Shown here in pieces: positions 4,620-57,665 of a stretch of DNA of 64,000 bases. A program made the translations under genes and the position numbers. Below the pieces are notes generated by a model, which had not been told where the DNA came from, made no database searches, and worked only from the letters and a program-made list of their open reading frames with translations. The stretch is from Branchiostoma lanceolatum (Eukaryota; Chordata; Leptocardii; Amphioxiformes; Branchiostomatidae), in the NCBI RefSeq assembly GCF_035083965.1, contig NC_089724.1, positions 14,116,910-14,180,909 of the forward strand, given 5' to 3'. Numbering within the stretch: position 1 is the stretch's first letter; every line of letters begins with the position of its first letter.

Positions 4620-7552
4620 TGTCGACGATCATTGGACTGCTGCATGTTCTTCCAAAACAGACAGGCGACGCTGTTTGCTGGTAGTAGAGACACAACCGAC
4701 CTCTTCCAACAACTGATTATTTCCCTCGAATGTCTCGTAATGTATTAAAAGTATTGAATCAAAATGTTACTAATAACACATAGTTTTCATTATTTGTAGT
4801 TGCTGCAGTCTATTTCTGTTCTTGTCTCTTTGAATTCGAAGTTCCGACAAAATGAATGTTATCCATGGTCAATACTGGAGTAGTATGAAATACGGTTCAC
4901 GTTTTCTGTGTCTGTGACTTTGAATTTGCCTTGGATGGGGTAACTTGGAAGAAATCATTCATAAGAGTATTATGTCTTATATATGATATATCGTAACCAT
5001 TAACAGTGGCGTCCACTAGATATTGGTTGAAAGAATAATCCACGACACCCACTCAACACTAAGTACCACCAACATGTAGAGAAAATTAGCTAGTCATTCA
5101 ATAGCCACCCACGACATCCCTTATATGATTGCATTAAATGCATAGATTTCTAAATTGCAGACAACGCTATTTGATTTTGTCTATGTGTTGATTATGTGTG
5201 GGTGGGGGCGGGAGTGACTATGATACGTTTCCAGCTTCCTTAGTATATCTTGTCGCTGCCCCAATGGGATGCATTCAAAAGTTTGGAAGAGCCAAGCCTA
5301 CGAACATGGAATCTGTAAGGACACAAATCGACAGCGGTTGCATTTCAGATCGTAACATTTTTATCTACCAATTTTCAATGGAAAGAAATCTATCACAAGT
5401 TATGTGGTGTTTATGATCAACTACTACTACTATGCCTGGCCTGACGCAAGGCGAGTGAGCGAAGTGGAAATGAACCATTTGATTACTTTTTTCTCGATTT
5501 CAGGACACCAGGACACAATATGGAGGGCGTAGCTGTTTGGATTTCAGTGAGTCGTAGGAGTTCGAGCGCTTAATTTCGGAGATATCTCCTCATCCCCTCA
5601 AATAACCTATATTAATCGCTAAAACTCAAAGAAGATAATACCAGAATGATACTTAAAATTGCATGCCGATGAAACACAAAAATGCTACGATCCGTTGAAA
5701 TGACAACCAAGGCACCAACATGGCTAGGTCAGCACTTGCTTGTTTCATTGAAATGGATAGTGAGTGAAGAAGGTCTATAGATAGCTCAGCCTAAGCTTCA
5801 AGCAGGTCCTACTGTGGCAGGGGACAGTATCAATTGATACCGTAGGGGGCCATTGGATACAGTGTTTGGCCAATGGATACTGTACAGTTTGTCCACTGCC
5901 AACATAGGATCTGCTCAGATTATACTCAAGCCCAACCGTAATATGTCTTGGATTAACACCCAAGTTTTCGGCGACTCGGGGCAGTGTGTGAGGAGCTTTG
6001 GGTTGCTCAGGTGGTTTTCCTACTACATATGACTAGAAAACGCTACTTGAGGGGCCTAGGGTTCTCCTTGGCAGTCCTGAGTCGACTCAAAACGCGTATG
6101 TAAATTGGGCACTACCTTTAGACCTATGCTATCTAAATTTTTCACAATCCAAAATGTCTTGTGTCACACAAACCAACTCTGTAACGTTACCATGTCCCAT
6201 ATAGCAACACGCATGCATACTCATTATTTTTCCACCCAATTACAGGTTTTAAATGTCAGCACAGAAATGATAGTTTTCAGAGCGCTTGCAGAGATAACCG
6301 GTTTCTTTGATGGTCTTAATTCTCCTATTAATACGGAGTCTTCGCGTGTGGTAAATCAAAGAGTTGCCGAAGTAGCATGTGGCAAAACCTACATGTTAGG
6401 ACAGATCAGGACACAGTCAGTGACACAACGTAGTGACTTCACACCTACAGTAGGCAATCCATGTGTCTTGCTATATTTTGCTCGTAGAAATTTTTCGCGA
6501 CATAGAAACATTCTATGCAAACGTAAAATATTTCTTGTGTTCATCGATCAGTGAATAACTTCTTTATCATAACATAGCAGAGAGTCAAGCCGTGAAATTA
6601 AATCGTAGTCTTTATCTACCCCCCACCCCCCCATTCCTCTGAAAAATGCCCCTTCGTCCGTTTTTGCCCAACTAAACGGCGAAAAGACGTTTAAAGAAAC
6701 GTTTATATGCCAGTACATTTGTTTGGAATAAACCGGTAATATAGATGTATGGTGTAGATGCTTAGTAACTAAAAGTCTCTAAATCTATTTGCCTCCGAGA
6801 AACCTGGTCATAATAAAGATCAGGTCGTCATTGGCATTGCAACATAACGCCAAATACCTGCCTGTAGAAAAATTGTTAACATATTTTTACAGATTGTCGA
6901 ATGATTCTAAAGTTCATATTGAAAACCCAACCCAACTGCAGTATATTAAAAAAAACACTTCCATGGGTTATGTGGTGTAATTTTATTCGTAAGTTGTATT
7001 ACGTAAAATCTTAAGATCCTGTAATTCCACAGAGTACCCTAAAACCGCCGCATAAAATGGTGCTATCGAGGCCGCCTCAATAATGTGTTGCACATCTTTT
7101 TTCTAAATCAGGTGGTCCTATAGTACCCGGTGGAATTATGAGAGTCGACCTTAATTACAATCTTGCCAGCAGTTATATCATTGATTCGCTAGAATTCGTA
7201 GCAGAGGACAATCTAACATGCCCAAAATAGCTTGACCCTTTTTGGTAAGCTGGCGATGTCTTTTGTGTGTAAAATCCTTACTCATGTGATGACATTATGC
7301 TGTAATTGCATTTAGCCCGAAGGGAGGCATGAGGGTGCAAGTAAACCAGGTTACGTTGATGCACGGCATGGAACCGTGCCGTTTTTCATCGAGAATGGGC
7401 ATCATTTGGATTAGCCTGGGCATTTTCTCCCCCGAAGACCAATTTCTGGCGTTATGTGATTCAACATGGAGCGTTCTGATGTATAAATTAACGGTATTAG
7501 TTGTACAGGTCCTTTCTGTTTGATGACCTTTGATGGTTGGTTGGTTTGTAGA

Positions 7553-21897: not shown

Positions 21898-24800
21898 TTA
21901 CCAGTCCAAGCTTGTCCTCTGGGTTGTGTATCGCGGGCTATTTTCACTGTAGAACTGAGAGTACCAGCGCCGGTGGCGAACAATGGCCGAGTCTTCCTTC
22001 ACCAAGACGGGCTTGGCTGGATAAGACTTGTTGTTCCAAACGGTAACGTCTCTTTCCAACTGTAAACGAAGACACAAGTCATCAGGTTACAATTATATAA
22101 TCGTAGTTTGAAATGTCAGAACGAAAAAAATGTAAATACATTTTTTTTCACTTGTATACCAACAAAATGAGTACATCGGGTTACTAGTACATAATCATTG
22201 ATTCTCAATTTGAATTACAGAAAGGGACACACAAAAATCAAAAGCAGCAATAAGCAATTGAACTCGAATGAAAAACTGACAAATATATATCTTAAGTTCC
22301 TAACAAATCTAAAAAATCAGATTTGAAAATTGATGACTGACATATGATATAACTGAAGTATGACATAACGTTATTTCAATAAAAAGAAGAAAAGGGAATT
22401 ATCAGTCTAATTTTCCTCGTAACTGCCATTAGCAGGAATGCCCTTCCAGGAGTAAATATCACCAAAGAACTAGATGTAGCGTGGTTTGCAATATGTTTTC
22501 CATCTTCATTTCGTTTAGTGTGGAATCCCTTACTGACCTGTACGGCTTCTCCCCACTGTACTAACTTGGCAGCAAACGTTGGGGTCCCCGGGCTGGCGTA
22601 GATGCTCTGTGTGTAGCGTAACAGGAGGGGTTCCACGGGCGTGATGGAACTTACCAGGACCACCTTCATCAGAGGACCATCGATGTACAGGTACACCACA
22701 CCTGGGCCGTTCTGTTGGTGAACCGTTGGAGTGATTATTACACGACAAAGATGTCAACAAAATGACTGAAAATGTGACATACATGTAGATGTGCACTCTC
22801 CTAGACTTTGGTTTAAGTGGCGATTACGTAGCCTCCGATGCAGACTCCTCCCGGCTGTTTTCTTTTTCAAGTTACAGTTTTTATACTATTAGTATTACAT
22901 TTTTTTCTGGCCCGGCCAGCAATAAGAAAAAAAAATGTAATAGTATAAAAACTGCAACTTGAAAAAGAAAACAGCCGGGAGGAGTCTGCATCGGAGGCTA
23001 GCGATTACGCAGGGGCGAGCCCGTTGAGAGGCCATTGGGCGTCCAAAGTCTCTCAAAGGTCTCAAAGTGAACGCTCAATGATCTCCAAGGTGTTCCAATG
23101 GGCGTTCAATGATCTCAATAATCTTCCAATGATCTTTTAACGATCTTTCAATGATCTAAATGAACAACGATTTTCAGTCGTCCTGTGGAGCCTTACGATG
23201 TACAGTACACACCCAGTCAATCTAGACCTACCTGTATGGCACTAGCCTTGACATCAGACCAGGGGATTTTGCGGCCGAAGAGATTCATGTCCATGTTCAC
23301 GGTCATGGTGCCGAACTGCGTGTCCGGAGCGGGGAAGGGCTGCCAGTCCGCCTCCCACTTGTGCGTGAAGAAGCCGGTGAGGGACGTCCAGATGTGGCGG
23401 AGGTCGTTCCCTGTCGTCACGCCGGGCCCGTGGAGGTGGTTCAGGTGACCGATGTCCGCACCGTTTTCGGATATTTCCTATTCATATAAGAAAGGCGGTG
23501 AGACCATGTAATGCTCATATTTGCCGTGCTACCAACGTTATCATATACATTTGAATATGCTCAAGAATCGTCTAAATGGCAGCTATTAGCACTTAAGAAG
23601 TAGATGATAATTTTTCCACTGTTATTGTTACCAGTAACCAGACAATGTCTATATAATAAACTCCTTTGATATTTGGGTCCACATTGTAAACACCTTTAGT
23701 CATCTCTGTATACTAAGTATACTAGTATGTAAATACTTAAGTTTTGGGACCGCATCTATAAGCAGCGACACCTACTACTGCAGTACAAAGTGTACCAGTC
23801 AGAATTGCCCTAAGGTAGGTGTCAGTAGTCTCTACCAGACTAACTACGCCAGCTATAGGGAGAAATTTGCCAGGGAAATTTGGCCATCGGAGGGTTGCGA
23901 GCGCAGTATTGACCCTACCGTGGACTGACTCTACTGGCCAATCATTCTTTTTTTGCCGAATTGTAATATCCATACGCCCGTATGAAGGCCTGGTGGAGGC
24001 TACCTGACAGGCGGTCACCGAAACGTCGGTTGAATAAAACGCTTTCCGCTTGGATGTGTACAAAGAGCCGTTTTATTCAGGTTACGTCCGCTGATCCCAG
24101 AATGATGCCTTGTTGAACCCTTGATGCTATATACTCTAATTGGAGCGAAGGTTTCCCCTTCTACAACTACCAAAGGTTACCTCCACATGTGCGTTGATGA
24201 AGTGTTCAGACAGCCCCCTGCACGTCCATTCCCCGCTCTCAATCTCGTCGATAACTTTAGGCGTCCAGGAGGGCTCCAGGCCATCACAGTGGTACCAAAT
24301 GTAGATACTGCCGTTACGCTCCAGACACGTCCACGACTTCACACGGGCAACGTCGGGCACTGAGAGAACATTTTTGTTTTTATTCAATTGATCTCATTTT
24401 ATTGGTTAAGCTGTAAAAGACATGAAAGACATACAGCCAGGGCTGCTAGGTTATTTACAATAAAATACGTGACCAGAGAACAGGACGTTATAATCAAGTA
24501 TCTACTATCATGAAACAGGATATTAAAGATTCAGTTGGTCGTTTTAACGATATATACATTTGATGCAAAATTTAGCTCAATTCGTAAGACGTTCTAATGA
24601 GTTTTTATCAGAAATAGGGACTAAAACGATTTTAGAGAAAGTAAAACACAGACAGACACACACACACTTATACATATACATATATAGAGAGTAAGGTAGA
24701 GTTATGACAGTAAGGTGCCTTACCTTTGGCGGCATACGGAATGTGCATACACTTCCCGTCTTCTCCCCGATACCGCCACCCGTGGAAAGGGCACTCGATA

Positions 24801-26298
24801 CAGTTCCCGACCACCCGGCCCCCCACGCCCAAGTTGGCGCCCAGGTGCGGGCAGTAGGCGTCCACTACAGACACCGTCCCGTTCTCCTGACGAAACACAG
24901 CAAGATGTTCCCCTGTGGAGGCATATTGTACGTCAGGCACACAGGCAACGGCAAGGGCGGATCGAGTGATACACAATGTCTTCAGTGTGGCTTGCAGTCA
25001 GGTGGCTATGACGTAACGTTGAGTCCGCCATGTTGGTGGGTTAAATACTCCTGCAAATTTACTTTCACGGAGAAATATTCCAAGTCTTTGCTATTTGATA
25101 TCCTCTAGCTCATCATATCTTTTTGTTTTGCCGCTGTTTCTACATATTTACGTGGCTATGACGTAACGTAACGTCCGCCATGTTGGTGGGTTAAACTCTT
25201 GCAAATTTACTTTCACGGAGAAATGTTCCAAGTTTCAAATTAAAATTCCAATGTTTGGTATTTGATATATCCTCTAGCTCATCGTATCTTTTTGTTTTGC
25301 CGCTGTTTCTAGATTCTGCAAATTCATAAAATCATACTCTCCAAGCAGAGCATGGGTTTCGGCTGTTTTTTGACGTGCTTTTAGGCGTTTTTGTCGGGCT
25401 TTCTACTTTGTCATCTTTTTTTTGTCTCGCGATCGAGACAAAAAAAGATGACAAAGTAGAAAGCCCGACAAAAACGCCTAAAAGCACGTCAAAAAACAGC
25501 CGAAACCCATGCTCTGCTTGGAGAGTAATAAAATCATGTGAATGGCCAGTCACCATCTTGGACCCTTAAAGAAGGCATCAACAAAGCTTGAAAGCTCGTC
25601 TTCGTTGGTAGAATTTTAAATTGTAATGCAATAAAAAGTTGTGCACGTACATTTTTGATTGTTCATCCCTTGACAAAGCTAAAGCCTGGCAGTGTACAGT
25701 CACAAATTTGCGTAAGTCTAGCTTTTTCTTGAGAAAGACGAATAAAATCGAAACCGGTCGAATTCCGTCTCAGCGATGTCATTGTCCCAGAGCTACGAAT
25801 GCATTCGAAATTACAGTTGAAATCCGACTTCAGAATATAGTCAATAGTATAAACATAAATGCATCAAGCGGACTAATCTGTAAAAGCGTTACCTAAGGCG
25901 ACGACCTCCTTGACCTGTCCCCGCTGTAGCAGACGAGACTCGAGAATCCCCCACCAGCCGTTGGGGTAGACCGGCGGAAGATGCCCCCTCTGCCGCCGCC
26001 GTCGCGCGTCGTTAGCCATGGCCTTCATGTTCCTCGTCCCGTCCGGGTGGTAGCCGAGGTCGCCGAGCTGGCGACAGAACTCCATCGGAGAGAACAGTAA
26101 CTGGTACAGCCAGACGGCACCCGCGAAACCCAGACCAAATAGTAGGAGGACTTCCACCGACGGCCATTGGAAAGCGAGCAGCGTTTCTCCTCGTAGTATC
26201 ACCCAGGCGGCGTCCACACGGGCCGGGCCGTGTTTCAGACCGACGACGGACGCCAGCACCGCCAGCAAGACGGCAAATAGATGACGAACATGAAACAT
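21898..26298 (-). CDS. nvd: Neverland/DAF-36-type Rieske sterol 7-desaturase
   Basis: This is a Rieske oxygenase that converts cholesterol to 7-dehydrocholesterol in insects and nematodes; the substrate here is inferred. Six exons in descending order are 26298-25893, 24912-24724, 24359-24181, 23477-23232, 22711-22538 and 22059-21898. They join in frame to 451 aa. What is seen: hydrophobic segments near residues 5-20 and 50-68, then a Rieske motif C156-P-H158 ... C176-P-F-H179. Next come WYHCDG and EHFINAH, and the non-haem iron motif D266-x2-H269-x4-H274 within [13 protein letters not shown]. The C-terminal RRWYSQFY is typical of the family. Introns 1 and 4 each carry a foldback mini-element, intron 3 carries a composite repeat, and a further mini-element lies just upstream. 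The family is absent from vertebrates but known in sea urchins, ascidians, insects and nematodes. Confidence 0.95.
22829..23000. mobile_element. Foldback MITE with exact 9-bp target duplication (copy 1)
   Basis: A 172-bp near-perfect palindrome lies in neverland intron 4. Its arms begin TAGCCTCCGATGCAGACTCC and end with the complement GGAGGCTA. The flanks are GCGATTACG at 22820-22828 and again at 23001-23009, identical. A 9-bp duplication with long inverted ends fits Mutator-like elements. It has no coding capacity. Arm identity is very high, suggesting a recent insertion or strong structural conservation. Confidence 0.88.
23745..24075. repeat. Composite dispersed repeat in neverland intron 3
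   Basis: Three blocks are related to the repeat at 55850-56300. A head from GGGACCGCAT to ATTGCCCT (23746-23811) matches 56179-56238. A middle block (about 23820-23945) matches 55850-55968 in inverted orientation. A tail, CACCGAAACGTCGGTTGAATAAA (about 24015-24038), matches GAAACGTCGGCTC at 56262. The middle block therefore seems to have inserted in reverse into the head-tail unit. Confidence 0.6.
25002..25312. repeat. Tandem duplication, about 150-bp unit
   Basis: GTGGCTATGACGTAACGT, CCGCCATGTTGGTGGGTTAA, CAAATTTACTTTCACGGAGA and CTTTTTGTTTTGCCGCTGTT each occur twice in the same order, from 25002 and from 25152. The second copy has a short insertion. It lies in neverland intron 1. Confidence 0.8.
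25335..25527. mobile_element. Foldback MITE with exact 9-bp target duplication (copy 2)
   Basis: A 193-bp palindrome of about 90-bp arms lies in neverland intron 1. The arms start TACTCTCCAAGCAGAGCATG; the centre is GTCTCGCGATCGAGAC. ATAAAATCA flanks it exactly on both sides (25326-25334, 25528-25536). The outer bases resemble copies 1 and 3 (TA, two variable bases, CTCC, then GCAGA). Confidence 0.9.
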
Positions 26299-26445
26299 TT
26301 CTGTAAAGGGGGATAGAAGGGTGGATTTTAAAAATTGAACGTTTAGAAAATACCTTTGACAAATGCTCTTGAAAGTTTCACTGACTTATTGCAAGCGGTC
26401 ACATTCGTCGTAACTTTCAAGTAGGCAGCAACAGAACCAACCACC

Positions 26446-26573
26446 TAATCTCCAAGCAGATCCAACGGTTGCAAAGACCGTATTCAACTGGCAGGTTTCA
26501 TTGCAACTTCGGTTAAAACTTCCTCTGCCAGTTGGATACGGTCTTTGCAACCGTTGGATCTGCTTGGAGATTA
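26446..26573. mobile_element. Foldback MITE with exact 9-bp target duplication (copy 3)
   Basis: A 128-bp palindrome sits about 150 bp upstream of the neverland start codon. The arms start TAATCTCCAAGCAGATCCAA and end with the complement TTGGAGATTA. CCAACCACC flanks it exactly at 26437-26445 and 26574-26582. It shares a (C/A)TCTCCAAGCAGA terminus with copy 2, which supports one family. Confidence 0.9.
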
Positions 26574-27146
26574 CCAACCACCGACAAGGATCTAAGACCG
26601 CCTTTTCCGTAATAGGACAGATGGCTTTTGCTGGATACATGTGCAATATTTAGCGCATATCATAATCCTAGATTTCTGAGAAATGTTGTTGTTCGTCCGT
26701 TCTGAGAAATGCACACTGTGCATAACTGTGTACGACTAAGCATGTACAAGTCGATCTGCATGTGCAAGACGGCGTTAGGCTGTCCAGGGCCCTTTAGACT
26801 TGAAGAAGGTAGAATCATTACTATTTTCTATTCGTCCAGAAATGTATAAAATCAGAAACACAACACGTTAGTCGGGACAGATTGGGAATAGGAATAGATA
26901 GGAGAGGACATGAGTGACTCGGAATAAAAGATCATTTCCATCGGCCACAACAATTGGCGCCTGTCTTCAGTCACTCTCCACTATTCACCGAAGAGCCTCT
27001 CTCTACTATTCTGCACATGCACGACTATCCAAAGAACGCAGCCTCCAGTGGAAAGGGGGTGTAATGAAACGATATACGAATATTTACATAACCCCACCGC
27101 CACACTGACCCGCAGTCTAACGACCAATCTAGCTTCCCAACGGTCG

Positions 27147-27197
27147 TAAAATCGTTCTCTAGAACGGGTTGCCAATCCGTTCTAGAGAACGATTTTA
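27147..27197. repeat. Perfect 21-bp inverted repeat
   Basis: TAAAATCGTTCTCTAGAACG and one more G are repeated as the reverse complement after nine bases. No target duplication is visible. It is a small foldback element or remnant. Confidence 0.7.
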
Positions 27198-27370
27198 AGT
27201 CGGTTCTTCTTTCGTCTTCATGTTTACAAACGGTTGAGACTAAACATGCAGAATCTTTCGATATCGAAATTCCGCGCAGCGTTGCCATTTTGTTCGGGTG
27301 GAGAAAGGGTGTGGCGTTCCAGTAGCACTTATAGATTAGCTAAACTTGTAGATTAGCTATAGATTATTGT

Positions 27371-28533: not shown

Positions 28534-28653
28534 TAGCCGTGGCGACTGTTACACGGCTTTCTTTTACTAGCTGTCTTGTATATAGCCGGTATAATATACA
28601 AGATCATACAAGACAGCAAGTAAGAGAAAGCCGTGTGACAGTCGCCACGGCTA
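28534..28653. mobile_element. Foldback MITE, about 47-bp arms
   Basis: The arms TAGCCGTGGCGACTG... and ...CAGTCGCCACGGCTA match over about 47 bp with three mismatches. GAAATGAT abuts the left end and recurs 17 bases past the right arm, after GGGCTAAC, so the true right end may be about 28668 with an 8- or 9-bp duplication. Size and form resemble the exact-duplication copies nearby. Confidence 0.65.
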
Positions 28654-32338: not shown

Positions 32339-34297
32339 GTCTACAGCTATAAGAAGAGAATACCAACATGGCAGTCATTACCCGCCTGCTTCATTGATAT
32401 GGAAAGTGACTGAAAATGGTATATAGATGCCAGATATATGACAATAAATTTGTAAGACTTTCTAAGTTACTTGTGGTGTGCTTCAGTTTATAGGATGTTG
32501 TTTGCTGTTTGTCAGATTTCATGTTTTTAGAGGTGTTTCTATTTAACATATATGCGGCAGCTTGACATATTTGTTGAAGTAATTGTGACACATTCCCTGA
32601 TTACCTTTAATGACAGTTAGTATTATTCAATGAACAGAGATGTTTGTACTAATTCTACACTCTTCTAATGATATTTAACATCAAATCAAATCATGCTTCC
32701 AGTTCTTGATTCCTGACACCAGGTAATCAAGTCAGATTCCTTTGATGATGTCACAGTGAACGCAGCAGCCGGTTCGAAACTTGGCACTGCGGCAAACAGT
32801 GCATAATCATCGTGCATGACATACAAAACAAAATATCTTATGTATGTAATATATCACATATATATCATTTTGTTTGATCTGTTTGCTTGTGAAAAGAATG
32901 TTTTTCGCAAGCTTCATCCAGGTTTTTAGTCGTGTTCACTGACTTCATCAGAGGAATCTTATTTGATAACCTGAAGGCATGAATCAAGAACTGGAACAAC
33001 TTGCAAGATTCAATGTCCACCAACATCAGAATGGTGTGTATTTTGTACAAACATCTATGTTCATTGAATAATACTATAATGTGGAAATGTTCCGGTGGTT
33101 TTATGTTCGCGGTTTTCGTGGTGAACCCTTTACACAAAGCCACCATTCCATTTTGTGACTGTAGCGCTACAGTTGTTGCAAATGCGGACTCAAAACCCAC
33201 TGGAACACTCCATTTTCTCCCTACCACGAACATTTTTGCATTTCCAGTATTTATCATGGAAGAATGTAATCAGCAAATGTTGTAATTTGGTGTTATTGAT
33301 GTCACGAGCACTTGAACCTCCTGTACAAGATTTTTGGCTTTTGATAAGCTTAACATCTGTTATGTATATCTTTTGTATTGGTCTTGTCATAGTAGGAAAA
33401 TGTAGGAATACAGTACTAGTACATAGTATAGCTGCACACCGAGTGATACCAATAAAGTTAAACACATGGCCTATATATTAACTAGACATTTATTTGTACC
33501 CACACACTTTTTGCTTTCCCTTAACTAATGGGTGCCCTGAAACAAGTCATATCCAATCTGTTACCATTCCAGCTCAGCTCAGAACATCACTTTTCTCATA
33601 TCAATGTTACTTGGCTATATGGGTGTAAAAGACCTACATAATTAGTACTATAAATGTATATTTTCATCACTTCATTTGGTGTTTTTATGTACTACTAGCA
33701 ATGGTATGTGAGTAATGTGGCTATTTGTATGGAATTGAAAATGAAAGTACATGTACATTAAGACAAGAGACTGCTCTTTCCACTAACCATAGATTATCTG
33801 TTCAGAAGAGATTCTAGAACTGTACGAGTGAGCAATTGTAAAAAGTAACTCTGTAGTGTAAGATGTTGCAGTGCTTTGTGTGGATTTGGGCCCAGGATTT
33901 GTTAACCCGGACAAAAGAAAAAACTTTGTGCTGTTGATTGTACAGAAAGTATGTTGTTCGCCAGTCTGTAAAATTCAACATATCATTGTCACTTGATATG
34001 TTTTTCAGCTACGTTGAAACAGCCAAGCGCTGGGAATATCTTTGAGAAAAGTTAAACTGTTGACCCCAAAAAAAAAAAAAAAGACCTTGCCTGGTATGTT
34101 CAGGGACCAAGGCTAACTTTACCTTACCTGTGTCTTTTCAGACAGGTAAGAATCAGTGACACCTGTGCTACCTATTCCCGCTGTATGTGCAAAATTCACT
34201 CTTGTTGACACCTACCTTTAATAAACTTGTATCCGTTCCCCATGTTGACTTTCTTTTGGACAGTTACAGGCCAAGCTTATCTGTCTTACAATCAACC

Positions 34298-40296: not shown

Positions 40297-40737
40297 TAGG
40301 GGTGGGTACCGGTACAGAAAATTCCGGTCCAGGTCCAGAGGGTCAGGTCCAGGTACCTGTACCTGATTATAGTAGTGTCTCAGTACATCATATTTTGAAG
40401 AGCCAGACACAAGTAAAGGTCTTTGTGAGTCCTACAAGTTATGTTCAAATTGTATATTAGAATTATCGGTGCATACTAATGTGTAAAAAGAAAAAGAAGA
40501 TGTACCAAAGCATGCAACCATGTATTCAAGGTAACTTTTATCTCACAAAAGAGATTCAGAGCAATAGTGTTCTTCTTGAAGTACAATGTAGTTGACAAAA
40601 ACTATATACATTATGACCAGAATTTTCTAATCGGTCCATTGGCCGGTCACTCATTTTTTTTCCAGACCGTTTTTTTGGACAGGTCTATAACAAAATACAG
40701 GTTTTGGACCGGTACACTGTACCGGTACCCACCCCTA
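40297..40737. mobile_element. hAT-like MITE with exact 8-bp target duplication
   Basis: The 441-bp element has 19-bp perfect inverted ends (TAGGGGTGGGTACCGGTAC and its complement). GTTATGAG flanks it at 40289-40296 and 40738-40745. An 8-bp duplication fits hAT. There is no coding capacity. A diverged partial copy is at about 58085-58173. Confidence 0.85.
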
Positions 40738-40939: not shown

Positions 40940-41430
40940 TAAACATACCTGTTCCTGAACACCACCCACGCAGGTAAACAAACCAGTCCCTGGTGCTGAA
41001 CATCATCCACACACAGGTTCCACACACACAGGTAAACACACCAGTCCCTGGTGCTCAACACCATCCACACACAGGCAAACCCAACTGGTACTGGACAACA
41101 TACACACTGGTAAACACACCAGTTCCTGGCGCTGAACACCATCCACAACACACAGGTTCCACACACACAGGTAAACACACCAGTCCCTGGTGCTCAACAC
41201 CATCCACACTGGTAAACAGACATGTCCCTGGTGCTGAACACCATCCACACTGGTAAACAGACCTGTCCCTGGTGCTGAACACCAGCCACACTGATAAACA
41301 GACCTGTCCCTGGTGCTGAACACCATTCACCCTGGTAAACAGACCTGTCCCTGGTGCTGAACACTATCCACACTGGTAAACAGACTTGTCCCCGGTGCTG
41401 AACACCATCCACACACTCACAGTTAAACAC
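40940..41430. repeat. Minisatellite, 41-bp unit
   Basis: About ten units share GTCCCTGGTGCTGAACACCA and ACTGGTAAACA. From 41216 on the period is a regular 41 bp; earlier units vary because of inserted CACACAGGT blocks. The periodic open frames (CQCGWCSAPGT-like) are artefacts. There are no unique spacers between units, so it is not a CRISPR-like array. Confidence 0.9.
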
Positions 41431-50797: not shown

Positions 50798-53031
50798 TGA
50801 TGGTGTTAGTTTGCCATTCTCTATGGCAATGATGACATAGATATTGTCTGAATGCAGTCTGATTAAATTAGGTTCTAGTAGCTCAACTTGTAGCAGCCTC
50901 ACAGTTGAGCTCCTGGTTCCAATCAGTTGCTAACTGGGTAACCCTAGTTCAATCCTGGATCGTGATATCTCCGTTGGGGCTGCGCCTGTCTGTGATTTCA
51001 AAAGAGACTTAAAATGGGGGTCCTGTGTTTGAGGAGGTGCCTCAAGCATGTTGAAGGGTAGCAACCCCTCACGGTAAAAATATACCCAGCTACTGAAACA
51101 GCAAGAAGACCTGCCACCCTATGTGCCACTAGGCACTACAAGGGTCTGAATGAATGAAATTAGGTGCTGTACTAAAAGTACAGGAATATGTAGAGAAACG
51201 GTTGTTTGTTGTTATTTATTATAGTTTACTCAGGTCTTTGAATATATAAACAGAATATTGTACCTTGTTCAAAGAAAATAATAATGGGTTTGTATTGACC
51301 TTTATTGCTTGTTTCAGACATACAATGCTGCTTGTTTCATTTGAAAGATGTTAACATGTAGTGTAAAAAGGATACATTTTTTTTTTGGTGTTAGTAGTCG
51401 TTAAGATCTTGTTTGGAACCTTACATGTCTGAGTCTTTACTTGCAAAACATTGCATGGAATAGGTTGTGTGAAAATGTAATTTGTACATTGGAGCTGATT
51501 TGCATTTACATGTATAGATGTATTTTAAAAGACATATCAAGTACTAGTACATTTGTAAACATTTCCCTTTATACTACAGCATCTAATTGCAAAAGAGTTG
51601 ATTTCCCAGACTGTTAAATGCACTTCAATGTACAATACAAGGAATTCTAGTTCTTTATGTTCTTAAAGAACAAATAGTGTTTGACTTTGCACACAGAGCC
51701 CCTGGGTCCAAATCATTTTGCAAAGTAGAAAATTGCTGGCCAGCTTCTGTCTGTATACCGTCTAGGAAATCCATATTGTTCACTGTACCACTTAACTAGT
51801 AAGCAAAGAACATGGTTTTGAACCAGCTGAAGATGTGCTTGTCTTACTTCTCCTACAGAAGTTTGAAGTCGCGGCATAACTTCAATCCTTTGGCCGTGAA
51901 ACTCCCTCGGCCGGCAACCTCAGCCCGTGTAAAAAAATCGCGTAAAAAACTAACGTCCCGCTCCAAGAAGTCTGCGAAGGAGGCGCTAAGCAGTAGTTTT
52001 GTGACAACCTTTGACTTGAGGTGCCGGAGGCATCGGCCGACCCCACGTATCATTACGGATCATTTAATATGTGAAAAACTAATTATGCGGCCTTCTGTAA
52101 GTCATTATTCTCCAACAACCGGTTTTTCTACAGCCACCAAGACGTGGCCGGTCAATGACAACAGGCTGGCTTTAACTACTCGTGTACGTACAGCATATTT
52201 ACACATAAAACGTAGGGCATATTTTTGTCAGACCGTCGGTTGTACGATGAGAGACGGAACTAGACAATCCGGCAGGTTTTAGAAAGGGCACCCAACAACA
52301 TGTACAATGCAGACCAAGTACTGACTCAAGGTTATTTTGCACCGATCGACGTAGTCAGAAGTTCAGCAACGTGTCAAATGATGGTAAGCAAGTTGCTTAT
52401 TCCATATCTTTATCGGTTCAGGTAACGTTAACGTTCAGTCAAGGTTGTTTAACAATGGCTTATACTAGTAACGTATACCACCGTATCTGTGAACAAGTGA
52501 CAATTGCGCTGTAGCCGGCCAGAGGCAATCAGGCTAGAGGCAATCTTACCTGTACTCAGCTGTCAGGCCCCTGACTATAGCTAGTGGAAGACTGCTAGAA
52601 ACATGATTCTATTGGGTAGAGACAATGGAACCAATGATCAATGATAAAATCAATTTAAGGTTAAACCTCCTTGATGAACAAGCGAAGCGGTTATGTTGTG
52701 AAGGCGTAGATCCTACACGGTGTATTCCGAGGTTCCAGTCCGACACGCAGGAGGCCTAGGGCTGGGACCGAGAGTGATGCGGAATACACCATGCTGTATT
52801 CTTTTTATGTCATACTCACCCGAGAAAAAACACATCAATGCGAAATGCTCAAGAAAGTGACAGCATTTGCTATCCTCAAACAACAATTATCAACTGAGAA
52901 CAGCAGTTCCAACGTCCACCCGCATTGAACGTTATTACGGCCCAGGTATGACATAATGTGGCTACAAAAGACAGTGATATTCCAACAGTTCTAGTATGAC
53001 GTTACATTTATGCCTTTCCAGTCCTTTCACG
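50798..53031. other. Spacer between HPDL and the sulfotransferase
   Basis: This stretch holds the HPDL 3'UTR and the promoter side of the sulfotransferase. A basic 156-codon frame at 51812-52282 has no recognisable domain and is left uncalled. A hairpin-like repeat with GGTTCCAGTCC lies at 52719-52790. The TTTCCAG at 53015-53021 may be an acceptor joining an upstream non-coding exon to the first coding exon. Confidence 0.45.
52719..52790. repeat. Inverted repeat GGTGTATTCCG / CGGAATACACC
   Basis: The 11-bp ends face each other across about 50 bases. The inner GGTTCCAGTCC and GGGACCGAG also pair in part. It is probably a small repeat element. Confidence 0.5.
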
Positions 53032-56310: not shown

Positions 56311-57665
56311 TATTCAGTCATTCGCCAACCTGATGAAATTATTCACGGAGGATCTATATATATTGTCGTCCACTAAAGTCTTTCTCCTTCTAGTCAACGT
56401 TCCGCAAAAAAGTGGCCAAGGTAGTCAGCAAAAACAAACACGGTAAAATGATCATGAGTGTTTACATCGCACAGGCTATTGTATACACGAATGTGCTCAT
56501 CGTAAGAAAATTTGCCTCAATGGACCGTTTTTCCGAAGTCGATCGTTGCGCAATGGCAATACAGTTGCGCGCCGTGGCGCGGTTACAGCCCTATGTTCTG
56601 ACAGCTTTGTATCTCTTATATAAGTCCCTCTCAAACCAAGTTACATATATAATGACTGTGGGATTCCTGTCATTCAACGTTAAAGGCCAACGTTAAAGTG
56701 AGTTCTTAAATCACAAAAACGTCGTATTTTTGCATCATGGACGTCGCTATACATTGTAATAGTGTTGTTTGAACTTATCATGAATAGAAATGACAAAATA
56801 GATTGACTTTCAAAATCCGATTTTCGCGCGCTAATATTCGGCTTGGGTTTCCTTGATCCTTTAAGCACAAATGAAATATACATTTTCCTCATGAAGATCT
56901 CAGACTTGCATAATTTATAACCATAACGTTGGTCTTCATCAAGGTTACCTACAGGTCAAAAATCATTCATCCCTTCTTGACTTATCTTAGGCCTGTTTCG
57001 AATTCTGCAGCCGCGGATACGCCCTCTGAAGTTCCAAAGGAAGCTGATCAAATTATGTCACTTCTTCTCATACCGTTGAAGAGCTATCTCCCACCTCAAA
57101 ATCATGACGGTAGCATGTCCAGAACACAAGAAAGAAAAAAAAAATGGAAGTTGGCCTGCAGTACCAAGGAAAGGCGCCCGGTAGGTGGCCCAAAATCTAA
57201 CCATTTCTTGAACAGGGATATGGCCTAACCACATTCCAAATTTCAACGCACAATGACAATCTATCCATAGCTACTGAGTTATGCTGTCCAACCACGACAA
57301 ACCATAACAAGGTAATGAATGGCCAAACGTGCGTGACTGCTAGCATCTTCCCTTCCGACATCTGCTTGAAGATTAAACTTTAGGACCGATGGCTTACACG
57401 AACTGCTGTGTGATACACGAACTGCTGTGTGATACCACCCACATTGCTATACGTGTACTTCCGGGTCGAAAAGCTATTTGCCTCGAGTTGTTTACCTTTT
57501 AATGTACTTTAAAACGCAACGTTAACTACAGAAATAGAGGCACACACGACAGTCGGTGGCGTTCGCTTTCGTACCAATATTTGCCAGAGGGACTGTGTGT
57601 TTATGATACAAAATCATATCGTCTCGCGGATCAGGAGAGACGGTGGTTCGAAAATCTTCTCCAAA

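Follow-up and report, generated by a model that had tools for sequence, protein, structure and literature searches.

Three short, nearly perfect palindromes lie in two introns and just upstream of a single lancelet gene. The question raised by this locus is whether they are separate insertions of one type of mobile element and, if so, what kind of enzyme moved them. The locus is part of a 64,000-nucleotide stretch of the Branchiostoma lanceolatum genome (NCBI RefSeq assembly GCF_035083965.1, contig NC_089724.1, positions 14,116,910–14,180,909 of the forward strand), called the window here, and positions are counted from its first base. The gene encodes a neverland-like Rieske oxygenase, and the palindromes, designated c1, c2 and c3, are as follows:

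22829..23000, no strand assigned: c1, a 172-bp hairpin element in the gene's intron 4, with ends TAGCCTCCGATGCAGA
25335..25527, no strand assigned: c2, a 193-bp hairpin element with ends TACTCTCCAAGCAGA and perfect 88-nt arms, in intron 1
26446..26573, no strand assigned: c3, a 128-bp hairpin element with ends TAATCTCCAAGCAGA, ca. 150 bp upstream of the probable start codon (ATG) at 26298

They are very probably separate recent insertions of non-autonomous hairpin miniature inverted-repeat transposable elements (MITEs) with one type of end, mobilised by a transposase that duplicates 9 bp of target and that most likely belongs to the Mutator-like elements (MULEs).

The inverted repeats of the window with arms of at least 25 nt, no more than 3000 apart, amount to 20 pairs, and three of the four top-ranked are c2, c1 and c3 (pairs I1, I2 and I4). 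The arms are 63 nt with 98% identity in c1, 88 nt with 100% identity in c2, and 49 nt with 98% identity in c3. Nearly the whole of c2 and c3 is palindrome, and likewise of c1, with arms symmetric to the last base. At 128–193 bp the elements leave no room for a transposase gene, and both this size and the terminal inverted repeats (TIRs) of 49–88 nt are those of MITEs. Tandem subrepeats of the kind that mark the arms of FB and Tm1 elements were not found – no array lies inside c1–c3 among 19 Tandem Repeats Finder rows with a score of at least 50.

What marks the palindromes as insertions is the sequence immediately outside them:

22820..22828, no strand assigned: left target-site duplication of c1, GCGATTACG
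23001..23009, no strand assigned: right target-site duplication of c1, GCGATTACG
25326..25334, no strand assigned: left target-site duplication of c2, ATAAAATCA
25528..25536, no strand assigned: right target-site duplication of c2, ATAAAATCA
26437..26445, no strand assigned: left target-site duplication of c3, CCAACCACC
26574..26582, no strand assigned: right target-site duplication of c3, CCAACCACC

A flush, perfect duplication of 9 bp borders all three elements and differs in sequence from copy to copy; the length of the duplication is constant, as in MITEs. The coordinates, arms and identical 9-mers given in a preliminary description of this DNA were thereby confirmed. When elements of these lengths were placed at random 2,000,000 times, identical flush 9-mers arose in 71 cases. 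When 743 candidate inverted end pairs were tested for flush duplications of 8–10 bp, a 9-bp duplication was found in three, which are c1–c3, and an 8-bp duplication in one, which is unrelated and hAT-like.

The three elements also have their ends in common. All six ends match TANNCTCC(AA/GAT)GCAGA, and the window has no other exact match to this motif; a looser form that accepts any two or three spacer bases, with 0 mismatches, likewise returns only these six ends from both strands of the 64 kb. The preliminary description had given the termini as TA, two variable bases, CTCC and then GCAGA. These parts are indeed shared by six of six ends, while the spacer between CTCC and GCAGA is not uniform: it is AA in c2 and c3 and GAT in c1. 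The first pattern used on the window, TANNCTCCNANGCAGA, finds only the two ends of c1 at 0 mismatches because the spacer of c2 and c3 is one base shorter, and with up to 3 mismatches it gives 56 matches against 43.0 expected. The common end is ca. 16 bp long in all three elements and ca. 20 bp in c2 and c3.

Past the end there is little likeness. In comparisons of whole half-elements, none of 300 shuffles scored as high as c2 against c3, an alignment that spans the first 25 nt. For the interiors past base 18, shuffles were as good in 110 of 300 cases for c2 and c3 and in 26 of 300 for c1 and c3, which is no clear likeness; c1 and c2 show a weak one (11/300) around CGGCTGTTTTYT at similar depth. 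The shuffle control is a soft one, since hairpin I6, which has other ends, compares with c1 at 3/300 for the whole and 6/300 for the interior, better than c2 or c3 do. That the arm interiors are almost unrelated between copies, as had been claimed, thus holds: c1–c3 have a short end in common and little else.

This anatomy would follow if a transposase encoded elsewhere acted in trans. The enzyme would bind the common short end, excise the element and insert it into a cut staggered by 9 bp, and fill-in repair of that cut would leave the 9-bp duplications. Selection would act on the bound tip only, leaving the interiors free to vary and to give rise to different subfamilies. A 9-bp stagger together with long arms makes a MULE transposase the most likely candidate. 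Duplications of 8–11 bp, often 9 bp, and long arms are typical of MULEs (PMC6446971). The 9-bp duplication in 3/3 elements falls within that range, and arms of 49–88 nt fall within the 14–500 bp of the same survey. Drosophila FB4 has been placed in the MULEs on duplication length and long arms as well (PMC8277862).

Several observations weigh against a single MULE-mobilised family. Whole half-elements of c1 do not stand out in comparison with c2 (32/300 shuffles equally good) or c3 (23/300), and c1 is therefore assigned on account of its short end and the length of its duplication rather than overall likeness. Judged from this window, multi-copy status amounts to three copies in 64 kb plus one tentative relic, described below. 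No transposase, whether MULE, Merlin or other, was found in 50 scanned segments of open reading frames (ORFs) in the window, which comprise 3 others and 47 segments taken from the 98 ORFs of 90 or more codons listed for it. Duplications of 9 bp are not unique to MULEs; Merlin elements make duplications of 8–9 bp, and those of c1–c3 fit this range.

Less probably, c1–c3 were mobilised by a transposase of another kind with a 9-bp stagger, for example Merlin-like or from an undescribed superfamily. Besides the lack of a MULE transposase in the scanned segments, the broad MULE survey points the same way: it reports limited evidence for MULEs in chordates and found none in Branchiostoma floridae, where a MULE had earlier been claimed and its transposase could not be confirmed (PMC6446971). 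Moreover, the end letters of Tm1, the sole MULE ends compared, are unlike those of c1–c3 (PMC3169594). Set against this, long arms combined with 9-bp duplications match published MULE families, for which 8–11 bp is typical.

Searches beyond the window added little on this point. Paired ends of the AA type were not found in a viral contig collection scanned for elements of ca. 105–135 bp, which covers the length of c3 and not that of c2, nor in a prokaryotic contig collection scanned for ca. 90–120 bp, which covers neither; both results say little. The 18-base end of c1 had one match in the viral contigs (L001); with no inverted partner in the surrounding 451 bases, it was taken as chance. Among the listed matches of a literature search for strings of the end motif, none of the titles read concerned transposons, and these matches look like chance or primers; a stricter form of the search likewise gave no transposon work by title.

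Comparison with described systems places c1–c3 among familiar elements. The MuTAnT family of Medicago goes back to a 292-bp foldback MULE whose 144-bp arms are almost identical. Like c1–c3 it consists of short, non-autonomous foldback elements (90% of 218 copies are 200–300 bp), and its copies in transcribed regions occupy UTRs or introns; unlike c1–c3, which target plain 9-mers, it targets (TA)n microsatellites, and it has a mean TIR of 47 bp and a Jittery-like transposase (PMC4486113). The Tm1 Mutator/Foldback elements of root-knot nematodes are a MITE-like class with variable interiors and make 9-bp duplications without consensus (8–10 bp in 45 of 53 complete elements). Their arms, however, consist of ca. 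14-bp tandem repeats, carry asymmetric terminal motifs and have a mean likeness of 93% (PMC3169594), whereas those of c1–c3 are symmetric to the last base, non-tandem and 98–100% alike. Most derivatives of Muta1, a MULE of Aedes aegypti, have the ends alone in common and unlike interiors, with 8–9-bp duplications and a reported preference for genic insertion; they differ from c1–c3 in subterminal 12-bp repeats in the arms and in host-gene fragments in ca. 20% of derivatives (PMC5225508).

Two further foldback systems are comparable in part. Galileo has foldback arms 98–100% alike within a copy, and elongation of its arms has been proposed, but it belongs to the P type, its duplications measure 7 bp and its arms reach ca. 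1.2 kb (PMC3573991). Drosophila FB4 has 9–10-bp duplications like those of c1–c3 and arms of ca. 700 bp (PMC8277862). The LanceleTn elements, MITEs of Branchiostoma (Osborne et al. 2006, cited in PMC5803294), have the host genus in common with c1–c3 and could include their family; LanceletTn-2 is mentioned in a gained intron (PMC5802833). In sum, c1–c3 are real, recent-looking and ordinary in kind, close to MULE derivatives of the MuTAnT and Tm1 type.

Near-identical arms within each copy and unlike arms between copies raise a further question, that of how the arms arose. The preliminary description held that each copy had captured or regenerated its own arms. Regeneration would mean that one end and its adjoining sequence were copied onto the other end by break repair or by template switching in replication, giving fresh, near-identical arms in each copy or subfamily; this is compatible with mobilisation by a MULE transposase and is considered unlikely. 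The 98–100% identity of arms within an element, with interiors that have no clear alignment between copies, is what it predicts, and there are precedents: repair of TIR2 from TIR1 over a tract longer than the TIR has been proposed for Galileo (PMC3573991), and template switching (FoSTeST) for Ssk-FB4 (PMC8277862). However, the same pattern is expected if three subfamilies with common transposase-binding ends had each supplied one young member, as in the Muta1 derivatives (PMC5225508), and the arms of c1 and c3 are starting to diverge. A search for captured sequence, by BLAST of c1–c3 against the window, showed no source (best non-self match, E 0.011).

A candidate older relative also leans against newly made arms:

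5792..5922, no strand assigned: 131-bp stretch, tentatively a decayed relative of c3, with diverged arms and an imperfect flanking repeat

It begins TAAGCTTCAAGCAGG and ends ATCTGCTCAGATTA, and it is the best match to the c3 arm elsewhere in the window (score 20.0, reached in 1 of 60 Markov windows, with three arms tried). Its inverted downstream partner, with a score of 15.0, was equalled by none of 281 random regions, and its two arms are alike with a score of 14.5, where 2000 shuffles did not exceed 9.5. The near-repeat that flanks it is weak, at an edit distance of 3 that 4.0% of random placements do as well as. For its interior alone, 8 of 2000 shuffles scored as high, but so did 69 of 9102 segments of the window, which is weak as well; when interiors were compared with the left arm of c3, random segments were as good in 105 of 3000 cases for its left arm and in 146 of 3000 for its right arm. 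Its likeness to c3 covers the 20-nt end and is weak beyond it. On this footing the element is tentatively regarded as an old relative of c3, and if it is one, the end of c3, and perhaps the arm, was inherited from an older family. Regeneration of the arms is the less probable reading: young subfamily members would give the same pattern, the element at 5792–5922 leans the other way, and in c1 and c3 the arms are no longer fully alike.

Other candidate copies did not hold up. The best match to c1 elsewhere, 52776–52806 (reached in 2 of 60 Markov windows), was dropped for lack of an inverted partner (105 of 295 random regions were as good), and the best match to c2 is within chance, since 40 of 60 Markov windows reach its score. 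A fuzzy-regex search for more paired ends in the window gave 18 rows, all of them c1–c3 or trimmed c1–c3, and the candidate at 5792 was not among them; at 5 total edits, 15 Markov windows held 2.3 pairs each on average by chance alone. The end-like site TAATCTTCAAGCAGA at 57361–57375, on the minus strand with 1 mismatch, stands alone, with no partner visible by eye, and is possibly a relic.

The small differences between arms bear on age. The ungapped within-element divergence is 2 substitutions in 200 sites, or 1.0% (Poisson 95% interval 0.1–3.6%). The arms of c1 and c3 have one substitution each. A 6-bp indel and T runs of unequal length also separate the arms of c1, and those of c2 differ in one T run. 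The SNP difference between two alleles of the Chinese lancelet is 4.39%, and 65–77% of its large indels (300–10,000 bp, a class longer than c1–c3) look derived from transposable elements (PMC4284660). If arms diverge neutrally after insertion, c1–c3 probably inserted more recently than an average pair of alleles separated, and with arms ca. 1% apart against an allelic divergence of more than 4% in lancelets, presence/absence alleles of c1–c3 may still be segregating. Arm-to-arm conversion could make the insertions look younger than they are, but the differences beginning to appear in the arms of c1 and c3 show that there is no perfect ongoing homogenisation.

A host function for the palindromes, as RNA or regulatory hairpins and not insertions, is very improbable: single-stranded DNA of c1–c3 does fold far above shuffles (z −16.5 for the first 150 nt of c1, −26.4 for the inner 149 nt of c2 and −20.3 for the whole of c3) and all three are in introns or upstream of one gene, but flush 9-bp duplications with a different sequence for each copy, together with common ends, mark insertions, and no Rfam family, microRNAs included, matches c1–c3 at the gathering threshold.

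The host gene is annotated as follows, with exons and splice sites read by eye:

22712..26298, minus strand: neverland-like Rieske oxygenase gene, exons 1–4 and introns 1–4
26298–25893, minus strand: exon 1
24912–24724, minus strand: exon 2
24359–24181, minus strand: exon 3
23477–23232, minus strand: exon 4
22711, minus strand: start of exon 5

Exon 2 encodes a Rieske domain (E 6.2e-18), and a KshA_C match lies at 21901–22086 (E 1.4e-12), a combination that we take to be the DAF-36/Neverland architecture. With c1 inside intron 4 (23231–22712), c2 inside intron 1 (25892–24913) and c3 upstream of the start codon, the claim that all three elements are in or just upstream of neverland was borne out, given these splice sites. 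In simulations, three points drawn at random from the 64 kb lay as close together in 1.0% of cases, a post hoc figure.

Other repeats lie near the same gene. Five of seven hand-picked palindromes start within 5.8 kb around neverland, a clustering reached in 0.5% of random draws (again post hoc). The palindromes at 27139–27205 and 32618–33076 had no 8–10-bp duplication in the end-pair scan. A 120-bp hairpin at 28534–28653, with 48-nt arms that are 94% matched and so more diverged than those of c1–c3, has a possible TA duplication and is perhaps a Tc1/mariner-like MITE. Beside c2 in intron 1 there is an imperfect direct duplication (25002–25142 and 25152–25311), 92–93% identical in two pieces and containing GTCCGCCATGTTGGTGG; its second unit stops 14 bp short of the target duplication of c2 and thus gives no empty site.

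Further from the gene, a 441-bp element at 40297–40737 has ends TAGGGGTGGGTACCGGTACA and an 8-bp duplication, GTTATGAG, and is hAT-like by duplication length. Two matches to the Rfam mir-2060 precursor, of 82 bp each, lie end to end on the minus strand (41210–41291 and 41292–41373). Both are in a minisatellite with a 41-bp period and 6.1 copies (41164–41414; also 40962–41075). The mir-2060 family is not known outside lancelets, and these matches point to Branchiostoma as the host. The 20-mer of bbe-miR-2060c-3p, listed for B. belcheri (PMC5650284), has six matches in the window with 2–3 differences, four of them in the 41164–41414 array at 41-bp spacing and the others at 40982 and 44082. This microRNA family, as annotated in lancelets, may derive from a tandem repeat.

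For lancelets, the combination of TANNCTCC(AA/GAT)GCAGA with flush 9-bp duplications provides a searchable signature for young-looking elements. A more speculative proposal, which we consider improbable, is that a chordate transposase making 9-bp duplications reads only ca. 16 bp of end, and that new mini-elements are repeatedly born by copying an end and filler sequence onto the other end. If so, perfect palindromes present once each should be numerous in the genome, unrelated in their arms and alike at the tip, a record of arm regeneration. The ends of c1–c3 offer a direct route to the enzyme that moved them and a means of testing whether hairpin arms pass down from older copies or are made anew.

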